The notes under the pieces are model-generated. The model ran no database searches. It had not been told where the DNA came from and saw only the letters and a program-made list of their open reading frames with translations. Positions 4,317 through 29,201 of a stretch of DNA of 35,715 bases are shown piece by piece. The translations under genes were made by a program, and so were the position numbers. The first letter of the stretch is position 1; each line of letters starts with the position of its first letter. The stretch is taken from the NCBI GenBank assembly GCA_013202525.1, contig JABMQS010000119.1:1-35715 (forward strand), given 5' to 3'. The stretch is from Candidatus Omnitrophota bacterium (GTDB taxonomy: Bacteria > Omnitrophota > Gorgyraeia > JABMRG01).

Positions 4317-5216
4317 ATGAAGATATTAGCCAAAGAAATTATAACCAAGACAGAAGACACGACCATTACACGGTTTAAGGTAAGTGCTCCTCTTATTGCC
4401 GTAAAGGCACAGCCGGGGCAATTTATCGTCGTTATGGTAAAGGAGGAGGGAGAGAGGATCCCCCTGACGGCCGTCGATAAGAATGAGAAAGAGGGTTCGA
4501 TCGTACTGGTTGTGCAGGAGATAGGTTTTAGTACGAAGCTCATGGGGACTTTAAATCCCGGCGATTCCTTGTATGCTATAGCCGGCCCGATGGGTCATGC
4601 CACTCCGATAGAGAACTACGGCAAGGTTATACTCGTAGGCGGCGGCGTGGGTATTGCCGAGATATATCCCCTGGCAAAGGCATTAAAGGAAGCCGGCAAC
4701 CAGGTTATCACTATATTAGGCGCAAGGACAAAGGAGCTTCTTATATTAGAGGATGAGATGAGGGCTGCATCGAGTGAAGTTCATATTACCACTGACGACG
4801 GCTCCTACGGCAAAAAAGGCTTTGTCACCGACATCCTCAAGGAATTGGTGTCTCCGAACTCTCCCTCACTTCGTTCGGGACCTCTCGCTGAGGGATCCCG
4901 AGCGAATGCGAGGGGCAAACTCCCAACTCCGAACTTAGTATACGCTGTCGGCCCTATCCCCATGATGGAAAGGGTTGCGGCTGTAACCAAAGACTCCGGC
5001 GTAAAGACCGTAGTCTCACTCAATGCGCTTATGGTCGATGCAAGCGGAATGTGCGGCGGCTGCCGTGTAAAGGTCAAGGATGAGGTGAAGTTTAGCTGTG
5101 TGGACGGCCCGGAATTCGATGGACATCTCGTGGACTGGGATGAGCTTAAGATGAGAAGCAAGGTATACGCTGACAAGGAAGAACATATCTGCAAGTTAAA
5201 TGAGCACATAACTTAG
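4317..5216 (+). CDS. NfnA/SudB-like FAD/NAD-binding, 2Fe-2S small subunit (sulfide dehydrogenase / ferredoxin-NADP oxidoreductase subunit alpha family)
   Basis: VGGGVGIAEIYPLAKAL, TDDGSYGKKGFVTD and MCGGCRVKVKDEVKFSCVDGPEFDGHLVDWDEL. ATG at 4317 preferred over 4296, which directly abuts the terminator U-tract. Confidence 0.85.
   Translation: MKILAKEIITKTEDTTITRFKVSAPLIAVKAQPGQFIVVMVKEEGERIPLTAVDKNEKEGSIVLVVQEIGFSTKLMGTLNPGDSLYAIAGPMGHATPIENYGKVILVGGGVGIAEIYPLAKALKEAGNQVITILGARTKELLILEDEMRAASSEVHITTDDGSYGKKGFVTDILKELVSPNSPSLRSGPLAEGSRANARGKLPTPNLVYAVGPIPMMERVAAVTKDSGVKTVVSLNALMVDASGMCGGCRVKVKDEVKFSCVDGPEFDGHLVDWDELKMRSKVYADKEEHICKLNEHIT
4861..4926 (+). mobile_element. 66-bp palindromic insertion inside the NfnA-like CDS
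   Basis: Imperfect inverted repeat CTCCCTCACTTCGTTCGGGA (4861-4880) / TCCCGAGCGAATGCGAGGGG (4896-4915). Flanked by direct repeat CTCCGAACT (4852-4860 and 4927-4935). Confidence 0.7.
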
Positions 5217-5252: not shown

Positions 5253-5317
5253 ATCCCCGCGCAAGCGGGGATCTAAATAGGATGTAAGTATGGATTCCCG
5301 CTTTTGCGGGAATGACA
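5253..5317. repeat. Dispersed hairpin repeat, paired copies
   Basis: ATCCCCGCGCAAGCGGGGAT (5253-5272) and GGATTCCCGCTTTTGCGGGAATGACA (5292-5317). A further partial GGGAATGACA follows at about 5328-5337. Confidence 0.85.
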
Positions 5318-5340
5318 GGGCTTTTATGGGAATGACAAAG

Positions 5341-6762
5341 ATGAAGAAAGAACCAATACACCCAAGAGAATTAGATGCAGCCGAAAGGGCAAAAGGCTTT
5401 GATGAGGTCTGTTTGGTCTATACCGAAGAGCAGGCACTTCAAGAGGCAAGCCGCTGCATCCAGTGCAAGGACCCTGCATGCATAGCGGGCTGCCCTGTTG
5501 AGATAGATATAAAGAAGTTTATCGCCCAAATAGCAGATAAGGATTATAAGGGTGCATATTTTACCTTAAGGGAGAAGAACAACTTTCCGTCTATGTGCGG
5601 AAGAGTCTGCCCTGCGGAATATCAGTGCAGGAAGACATGTGTCTTTACAAAGAAGGATGCGCCTTTTGCCTCGGAGAAGGCGATAAATATACATTTCCTT
5701 GAGAGGTTTGTCGGCGACTACGGCATGAAAGAGAAACTTGAGACCCCGGCATATATAGATGAGAGACTCTCTAAATTTAAGATAGCAGTGGTCGGTTCAG
5801 GCCCTGCGGGCCTGTGCTGCGCAGGCGAGCTCGCCAGAAGGGGCGTAAAGGTCGTTGTCTATGAGACACTCCATAAGCCCGGTGGTGTATTGCGATACGG
5901 CATACCGCCCTTCAGGCTTCCGCAGGATGTGCTTGATGTTGAGATAGACTACCTTAAGAAGCTGGGGGTCGAGATCAGGCCTAATATAATTATAGGAAAG
6001 ACCAAGTCTTTGGATGAGCTCTTTGAGGAAGGTTTCTCCTGCGTATTTTTAGGGCTCGGCGCGGGAACACCATCCTTCATGGGAGTCGAAGGAGAGAACC
6101 TTTGCAATGTCTACTCTGCAAACGAGTTTTTGACCAGGGTCAATCTGATGAGCGCATACAAGTTTCCGGCCTACCATACACCGATAAATGTCGGTAAGCA
6201 TATAATGGTGATAGGCGGCGGCAATACGGCCATGGACGCTGCGAGAGTAGCATACAGGCTTCAGATGATAAAGGGTATTGAGCCCAGCGTCACCGTATTC
6301 TACAGGCGCACAGAGACAGAGATGCCGGCCAGGAGGCTTGAGATAGAGCACGCCAAGGAAGAAGGTATTAGTTTTGAATTTCTGGTGCAGCCCACAGGTT
6401 TTATCGGGGATGACAAAGGTTATGTGAAGAAGATAAAGGCCCTGCGTTGTGAACTCGGTGAACCCGATTCAAGCGGCAGGAGGAGGCCCGTTCCGATAAA
6501 GGGTAGTGAGTTTGAGGCGGATTGCGATGAGGCGATAATAGCGCTTGGCCTTAAGGCAAACCAGATCCTGATCGAGGCGACACCGGAGATCAAGACAGAT
6601 AAGTGGTCTGATATAATAGTTGATAAGGATACTATGGAGACCTCGATAAAGAAGGTCTACGCCGGCGGCGATATCGTAGGCGGCGAAGGTACAGTAATCG
6701 AAGCAATGGGGATGGCAAAGAAGGCCTCCCGCTCAATAATAGACTATCTTTTAAAACAATGA
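5341..6762 (+). CDS. NfnB/GltD-like NAD(P)- and FeS-binding large subunit (annotated in many genomes as NADPH-dependent glutamate synthase)
   Basis: CIQCKDPACIAGCPVEIDIKKFI, CGRVCPAEYQCRKTC, VVGSGPAGLCCAGELA, VIGGGNTAMDAARVA and YAGGDIVGGEGTVIEAMG. Start set at 5341 because the upstream in-frame codons come from the dispersed repeat. Confidence 0.9.
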   Translation: MKKEPIHPRELDAAERAKGFDEVCLVYTEEQALQEASRCIQCKDPACIAGCPVEIDIKKFIAQIADKDYKGAYFTLREKNNFPSMCGRVCPAEYQCRKTCVFTKKDAPFASEKAINIHFLERFVGDYGMKEKLETPAYIDERLSKFKIAVVGSGPAGLCCAGELARRGVKVVVYETLHKPGGVLRYGIPPFRLPQDVLDVEIDYLKKLGVEIRPNIIIGKTKSLDELFEEGFSCVFLGLGAGTPSFMGVEGENLCNVYSANEFLTRVNLMSAYKFPAYHTPINVGKHIMVIGGGNTAMDAARVAYRLQMIKGIEPSVTVFYRRTETEMPARRLEIEHAKEEGISFEFLVQPTGFIGDDKGYVKKIKALRCELGEPDSSGRRRPVPIKGSEFEADCDEAIIALGLKANQILIEATPEIKTDKWSDIIVDKDTMETSIKKVYAGGDIVGGEGTVIEAMGMAKKASRSIIDYLLKQ

Positions 6763-16542: not shown

Positions 16543-16606
16543 TGTCATTCCCGCGCAAGCGGGAATCCAGTCGTTTGCCTGGACCCCCGTTTTCGCGGGG
16601 GTGACA
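16543..16606. repeat. Dispersed hairpin repeat, inverted pair with TGTCA...TGACA ends
   Basis: TGTCATTCCCGCGCAAGCGGGAATCCAG followed by CTGGACCCCCGTTTTCGCGGGGGTGACA. Confidence 0.9.
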
Positions 16607-27090: not shown

Positions 27091-28038
27091 ATGTTTAAAA
27101 GACTACTAACACTAATAATTAGCGTTAATCTACTTATAACTAGTGCAGGGGTCTACCCTGCGTCCTCAGTGAAGGAGTCTGCCTAAAGGCCTTTGGCAAC
27201 AGGCCTGATGGACAAAGACGAACTCGCATTGAACATGCTCACCTATGGCAAGAGCCAAGGAGAAGCCAACGAAGCGGGAAAAGAATATGCTCAAAGCCAG
27301 CGCCTTCTTGCTGCAATATGCAGCTATTGCAACATAGTTTATAACGTACAACGGGATACAGGAACTTCTGGCTTGTCACATGGCATATGTGCTAAATGTT
27401 TTATAGAAATGATGGGAGAAGACAAAGCGCTGAAGTTTGCAAGTAGGGAAGAGATTAACGAGCAGGCAAGAAAGAGAGCCTTTATCGAAGCACTCATGGG
27501 CAGTAGGCCCTCTGATGCGGTTTCTTCAGATACCCCATCTGCCCCCAAGGCACATTCTAGCGGAAATCAAGATTTAGCAGATGAAAAAGCTGCAGAGCTA
27601 GCTTCAGGCCTGATAGATAAACATGAGATCGCCCTAATCAAGCTAACCTATAGCATGGATGGAGCAGAGTCGAACAAGGTGGTAAAAGAATATGCCAAGG
27701 AGCATAAGCTTCTTATTCAAAAGTGCAGTACATGCAACATGATTTTAGGAATAGACTATGATGCTGAAGCCTCGGTGGGCGCGTCGCATGGCACTTGCTT
27801 AAAGTGCTTATCAAAGCAACTGCCATGGGAAACGATCTTAAAACATTACAGCGCAGAAGAGATCGAGGATCAGGAAAGAAAGAGAGCCTTTATCGAAGCA
27901 TTCATGGGCAGCAGGCCTGACGGCAAATCACCGCCTTCAAAGGCCGCTTCTACAGGCGCAGAAACTCAAACCGCACCAGTATCAGCAGAATATGGAGAGC
28001 AGGTACTCTGCCAGAAGGCAATAGACTTTTCCGCTTAA
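27091..28038 (+). pseudogene. Secreted two-repeat cysteine-motif protein interrupted by an in-frame TAA (27184-27186)
   Basis: ATG at 27091 with RBS ggtggag encodes MFKRLLTLIISVNLLITSAGVYPASSVKESA, then TAA, then the open frame continues in phase through two homologous repeats (CSYCNIVY...SHGICAKC and CSTCNMIL...SHGTCLKC). Confidence 0.65.
27468..27917. repeat. Internal direct duplication in the cysteine-motif gene
   Basis: AAGAAAGAGAGCCTTTATCGAAGCA(c/t)TCATGGGCAG(t/c)AGGCC at 27468-27509 and 27876-27917, 408 nt (136 codons) apart. Confidence 0.85.
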
Positions 28039-28117: not shown

Positions 28118-28408
28118 ATGAGGAAGCTGTTTATTATTACCATTTTAACCGGTGTATTTCTTATGGCATTCACGAACTGTTCTTATTCCGAAGATATCAG
28201 CCCACGCGATGAAAAGATATTGCAAAAATGGGAACAGCAGCAGGAAAGATTCGATAAGATTTTGACTAAATGGGAACAGCAACAAGAGCAATATGATGAA
28301 ATATTGAAAGAATCACAGAGGCAGCAGGAAGAATTTAACAAACAACAGGCAGAATCCCAGGAAAAATATGATGAGTTGCTAAAGCAGAGTAGCCTGCTCA
28401 AAGATTAA
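28118..28408 (+). CDS. Small secreted/lipoprotein-like coiled-coil protein with 14-residue repeats
   Basis: Signal peptide ending near FTNC; KILQKWEQQQERFD / KILTKWEQQQEQYD / EILKESQRQQEEFN repeats. RBS aggaggagg. Confidence 0.7.
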   Translation: MRKLFIITILTGVFLMAFTNCSYSEDISPRDEKILQKWEQQQERFDKILTKWEQQQEQYDEILKESQRQQEEFNKQQAESQEKYDELLKQSSLLKD

Positions 28409-29079: not shown

Positions 29080-29175
29080 AATGTAACCCCGCTGGTATTT
29101 TTGTTTGCTCTAGGGGTATTTTTTCTGGTATAATACGTGACGCTATTATAGAGATTGCTTTGTTTAGACTTGTCT

Positions 29176-29201
29176 GGATTCCCGCTTTCGCGGGAATGAC
29201 A
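29176..29201. repeat. Dispersed hairpin repeat, single copy upstream of tRNA-Arg
   Basis: GGATTCCCGCTTTCGCGGGAATGACA. Confidence 0.85.

Follow-up and report, generated by a model that had tools for sequence, protein, structure and literature searches.

A 54-bp hairpin-forming repeat, very probably inserted into a heptamer array, in an NfnA loop of an Omnitrophota bacterium

Rickettsia palindromic elements (RPEs), as outlined in PMC10969869 (after Ogata et al. 2000, 2002), are dispersed palindromes of ~150 bp that lie in frame in conserved genes. REPs within genes are likewise established, and different REPs have been found near one recB site in two Xanthomonas species (PMC3733652). Heptamer repeats have been described as GGGAATC in Xanthomonas and Nostoc (PMC4692102) and as TAACTGA in Beggiatoaceae (PMC4679880). 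Our literature search on such repeats in Omnitrophota found no paper. Here we analyzed a 35,715-nucleotide stretch (the window) from a Candidatus Omnitrophota bacterium whose genome is a 1.64-Mb draft in 149 contigs, 93% complete. We find that its nfnA-like gene very probably carries one copy of a 54-bp nonautonomous, hairpin-forming repeat, cleanly inserted into a preexisting heptamer array in a tolerant loop. The features of the locus are as follows:

4317 to 5216, forward strand: nfnA-like gene (FAD/NAD-binding subunit), assigned by Pfam and NCBIfam NF004862
4852 to 4861, forward strand: heptamer array to the left of the element, CTCCGAACTC
4862 to 4915, forward strand: 54-bp palindromic element, TCCCTCAC...GCGAGGGG, coding 18 residues; defined by nine genomic copies, borders from copies and empty sites, and the hairpin
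4916 to 4937, forward strand: heptamer array to the right of the element, CAAACTCCCAACTCCGAACTTA; the sister genus G003 has a matching array
5290 to 6762, forward strand: nfnB-like partner (glutamate synthase small-subunit family), assigned by Pfam and NCBIfam

The nfnA-like reading frame, which adjoins nfnB, is open from 4296, with ATG 4317 as the likely start by comparison with homologs, and it continues uninterrupted across the whole palindrome insert. Hairpin pairing covers 4862 to 4915, the unit ends in TCCCTC and GAGGGG, and the RNA fold of the palindrome has an energy of -35.6 kcal/mol against a shuffle mean of -23.1 (z = -4.3; 0 of 200 shuffles as good). The initial annotation had described a 66-bp imperfect palindrome between two copies of CTCCGAACT, at 4852 to 4860 and 4927 to 4935, that added 25 residues to the protein. 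Both nine-base repeats, spaced 75 nt apart, and a strong, imperfect palindrome between them are indeed present; its length, however, is 54 bp, as in the complete, uninterrupted copies C17, C144, C109, and C110, and the insert codes 18 residues. The 54 nt make 18 whole codons, none of them a stop, so NfnA gains these residues with the gene intact. A known RNA family was rejected as the identity of the palindrome, since the Rfam matches in the window are two tRNAs and nothing else. The window holds other repeats as well: a different dispersed palindrome, GGATTCCCGCTTTTGCGGGAATGACA, lies intergenically at 5288 to 5317, 16543 to 16606, and 29172 to 29201 (at L012, the loop of a palindrome of this type contains a CCCTCGCTTTCGCTCGGGA unit), and the small-ORF region before the tRNA genes contains three 42-nt tandem units (28211 to 28336) and a duplicated stretch (27200 to 27290 and 27605 to 27695, ~405 nt spacing).

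Searching the window's genome with an 84-mer query recovered nine copies of the element: one inside nfnA, one at the 3' end of murD, and seven between genes, whose neighbors, as judged by their translations, include truA-, rubrerythrin-, coaD-, epimerase-, tsaD-, and aroE-like genes. Where flanks were compared, the repeat measures exactly 54 bp in nfnA, C17, C144, C109, and C110; the C48 copy is 52 bp, the C53 copy is cut by a contig end, and the C49 and murD copies hold additional inserts of 15 and 30 nt, respectively. The insert nested in the murD copy (L002 1501-1620) is itself palindromic, CCCTCCGTAGCTTCAGCGAAGGAGGG. This copy forms the C-terminal tail of MurD, whose model stops at residue 444 of 495. 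It is read in the same frame as the nfnA copy, and the two have GPLAEGSRANARGKL in common; since four of the six frames of the 84-bp composite are open throughout, the common frame is unremarkable by itself. The initial annotation's view of a small dispersed palindrome, placed in frame within a loop of a conserved gene in the manner of RPEs, is upheld by these nine copies, two of them coding, and by an alignment of NfnA homologs in which relatives are without the element at this site. A copy number as low as nine nevertheless counts against a mobile repeat. Among 78 other genomes, matches to the element were weak or partial at most (best E value, 1.5e-5), and its core pattern occurs in one other metagenome-assembled genome in GTDB r220, in a scan that may omit records of the window's own genome. 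The core had no match in the viral contigs searched, and a viral carrier was rejected on these grounds.

When exactly 4862 to 4915 is removed, the rejoined DNA reads CTCCGAA CTCCAAA CTCCCAA CTCCGAA CTTAG, a heptamer array with 18 of 21 period-7 matches (equaled in 0 of 20000 shuffles). It codes VSPNSKLPTPN, and the loop then equals in length those of G001, G002, and G003, the remaining genera of the family that were compared. The loops of these genera match this empty form, VSPNSKLPTPN-LVY, in length, and KELVSPNLVYAVG, previously put forward as the usual sequence, is not that of close relatives. The empty nfnA site is a reconstruction from the flanks in one strain only. At the homologous place G003 has AAACTAA CAACTAC GAACTAATA, matching AAACTCC CAACTCC GAACTTAGTA in the window, and is without the palindrome. 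This matching array in the sister genus indicates that the heptamer array at nfnA most likely predates the palindrome.

Other copies of the element have empty counterparts within the same genome. At C110 it interrupts a unit from a different palindrome family, between GGATAGCCGGGATATT and CTTGTCCCGG, and the empty form, CGGGACATTCTTGTCCCG, is found elsewhere in the genome; at C144 and C109 it separates GGGGTTTT from CTAACCCC and GGGGTTTT from TAACCCC, with the empty forms GGCGGGGTTTTCTAACCCCGC and GGCGGGGTTTTTAACCCCGC also found. The 54-bp insertion is therefore precise and free of duplication in three kinds of context, two of which are the loop of another hairpin. The outer palindrome, of the GGATAGGCGGGAC family, flanks on both sides a RAYT gene, L068, which scores 107.7 bits against the NCBIfam model for REP-associated tyrosine transposases (cutoff, 80). 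Two further RAYT-type genes, L066 and L067, have different flanking sequences, and in this 93%-complete draft the 54-bp family lies beside none of the three. The RAYT-type genes at L067 and L068 each have palindromes of their own on either side (L067 1250-1305 and 1880-1930; L068 1330-1400 and 1880-1945), with sequences GGGGTCAGGCCCTGAGCACGAA... and GCGGGGTT...AACCCCGCCTATCC.

The recipient loop was compared across 46 NfnA homologs of the class. It is bounded by a helix that ends in TDxLKELL and by the strand LVYAVGP and ranges from 5 to 34 residues. Its position was fixed by alignment to the solved NfnA structures 5jca_S and 4ylf_A, which breaks at about query residues 187 to 212, where those structures have only a short link; within the NAD-binding domain, the loop thus connects helix to strand. 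The expectation of a surface loop holds as far as the loop is concerned, and exposure at the surface would follow from the fold. Among the 32 loops long enough for a periodicity test, nine (G000, the window's genome, and G002, G003, G008, G011, G092, G108, G256, and G280) have at least 11 of 14 period-7 matches, compared with a single loop for nine other periods combined. The heptamers themselves vary and include ACACCGA, AAACTAA, CCACGAA, CTTAAAA, GCTTAAA, and ACTATGG, among others. Palindromes occupy 5 of the 46 loops (the window, G070, G034, G186, and G173), and one loop has both palindrome and array. The G034 palindrome has a 14-bp stem and is unique in its genome; those of G186 and G173 are of the CGTCATTGCGAG...GCGAAGCAATCTC type, and the exact 13-mer GCGAAGCAATCTC occurs once more in G173 and has seven copies in G000. 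The G173 gene (L178) has a further insertion-like segment, SASLAKGGQGGSASGGKNE, in a different loop, after AKAL. On an NfnA tree with few well-supported branches, so that change counts are indicative only, the minimum is eight changes for repeat-bearing loops, six for heptamers, and five for palindromes. The presence of other repeats at this spot in related bacteria suggests that small repetitive DNA can land safely, and has done so repeatedly, in this one flexible loop. The initial annotation had noted neither this reuse of the loop nor the heptamer array that received the element.

The G070 genome, a single contig of 1.43 Mb, offers a parallel case. Its nfnA loop holds a palindrome with a 26-bp stem built of GTTCGAGGTTCGACCTC, a sequence with 41 exact occurrences in the genome, and copies of the palindrome lie on both sides of a RAYT-like gene that is above the Pfam PF01797 cutoff and below that of NCBIfam (42.5 bits versus 80). 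A second copy is in frame in nfnB (L177 3-716), where it codes nearly the same peptide as in nfnA, RGSTS(S/G)GGRTSN. Because G045, of the same genus, has a short, five-residue NfnA loop, the G070 insertion is probably recent on the scale of the genus.

Heptamer arrays also occur outside nfnA, and their genome-wide statistics are based on sampled stretches. A 362-kb sample of the window's genome contained ten period-7 arrays, of which nine are intergenic; each of the other periods between 4 and 16 gave 0 to 3 arrays. Three heptamer arrays were found in a 41-kb sample of G280; a 299-kb sample of G002 had none beyond the nfnA array, and samples of G070, G256, G003, and G011 had none. As most samples are without arrays, genome-wide heptamer abundance was rejected as the sole cause of the loop arrays. 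In-frame arrays lie in loops of LolD, LysS, and RimO of G280 (L187 3556-3587, L187 5283-5326, and L191 5989-6028) and of PrmC of the window's genome (L077 15130-15166). Intergenic heptamer arrays include (AGTTGGG)n followed in inverted orientation by (ACTCCNA)n, a pair from which a hairpin is possible (L081 1418-1490), and (NTTAGGT)n repeats resembling the telomere type (L077 14582-14620, L078 31-66, and L082 9032-9078).

The order of events that best accommodates these data would begin with a heptamer array occupying the insertion-tolerant NfnA loop, into which the 54-bp palindrome would then have inserted cleanly, without target duplication. Clean insertion in hairpin loops, together with a RAYT gene beside the outer palindrome, points to movement as single-stranded hairpin DNA, for which a RAYT-type (HUH, Y1) transposase could act in trans. 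Retention of the insert would be explained by the loop's tolerance and by its length in whole codons, and since the loop is permissive we infer that retention was near neutral rather than adaptive. The mobile unit could instead be the whole 84- to 87-bp composite of heptamers, palindrome, and heptamers, copied as a block between nfnA and murD. In keeping with this, both copies are preceded by CTCCGAACTC and followed by CAAACTCC.AACTCCGAACTTA, beyond which their sequences differ, and with heptamer flanks in common at least one of the two may have moved as a larger block. Yet seven other copies have the 54-bp core without heptamers, and G003 nfnA has the array without the palindrome, so the nfnA array need not have arrived with the palindrome. 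Block copying may explain the murD copy; as a general account of the element we consider it unlikely.

The initial annotation's proposal of an RPE-like element of ~66 bp with a 9-bp target duplication drew on the presence of CTCCGAACT on either side of the palindrome. These nine bases prove to be part of the (AACTCCN) heptamer array, and the palindrome in murD is bordered on both sides by the same nine bases, so they are not the duplicated target of the nfnA insertion. Removal of 54 bp restores the array, and C110, C144, and C109 are without any duplication. A target-site duplication was accordingly rejected on the murD copy and the empty sites, and the borders, whose empty sites are precise in all three types of context, also lack the duplication of a MITE of a DDE transposon; we regard this proposal as highly improbable. 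An origin without mobility, in which polymerase slippage and template switching made array and hairpin locally, would fit the differences in heptamers among genera, some unique in their genome, and slippage has been proposed for bacterial heptamer overabundance (PMC4692102). It fails on the nine dispersed 54-bp copies and on the 41 exact half-arm occurrences in G070 and is similarly hard to credit for the element, although these processes are still the most likely source of the arrays of heptamers and may also have produced the G034 hairpin. An assembly or binning artifact could be suspected in a draft of this many contigs, with certain copies at contig ends. The nfnA copy, however, is internal to a 35.7-kb contig, short, and in frame, its flanks match the sister genus, and an analogous insert is present in the single-contig genome of G070, which leaves an artifact with the slimmest of chances. 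The preferred reading remains a mobile 54-bp palindrome inserted into an older array.

More speculatively, heptamer arrays in permissive loops of Omnitrophota housekeeping enzymes might serve as landing pads for hairpin-borne palindromes mobilized by RAYTs, with one NfnA loop used repeatedly and independently and peptide gained in two steps, array and then palindrome; we offer this broader scheme as a tentative one, and doubtful at present. With this locus, the range of in-frame palindrome insertion comes to include Omnitrophota, and the evidence is unusually clean, namely, precise empty sites and a matching recipient array in a sister genus. The filling of one enzyme loop by unrelated repeats in many genera is a natural experiment in how selfish DNA builds protein segments, and the same loop lets one ask whether insertion favors hairpin loops and heptamer arrays.

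REPs within genes and RPEs are already known; the new elements here are the precise empty sites, the insertion into heptamer arrays, and the reuse of one protein loop. Like RPEs as outlined in PMC10969869, the element is a dispersed palindrome found in frame in conserved genes, here inside nfnA and at the C terminus of murD, with the protein apparently still functional. It differs in measuring 54 bp versus ~150 bp in that account, in having only one or two of its nine copies in genes, in having a heptamer array as recipient, and in the precision of its empty sites. Like intragenic and RAYT-linked REPs (PMC3733652), it is a short palindrome found mostly between genes (7 of 9 copies) and occasionally within them; palindrome-flanked RAYT genes are present in both the window's genome and G070, and the recB site of Xanthomonas provides a precedent for site reuse. 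Unlike REPs, the 54-bp unit carries no GTAG or CGTC tag at one end and does not flank a RAYT gene, as the outer GGATAGGCGGGAC family and the G070 family do; it is nested in the loops of other hairpins and in heptamer arrays, and a single loop of one gene is used across several genera. The arrays, for their part, resemble bacterial heptamer repeats (PMC4692102, PMC4679880) in having few tandem units that are mainly intergenic, sometimes inverted, and occasionally within genes, and differ from them in that many heptamers are involved, the loops belong to conserved enzymes (NfnA, LysS, RimO, LolD, and PrmC), and the same NfnA loop is occupied in several genera.
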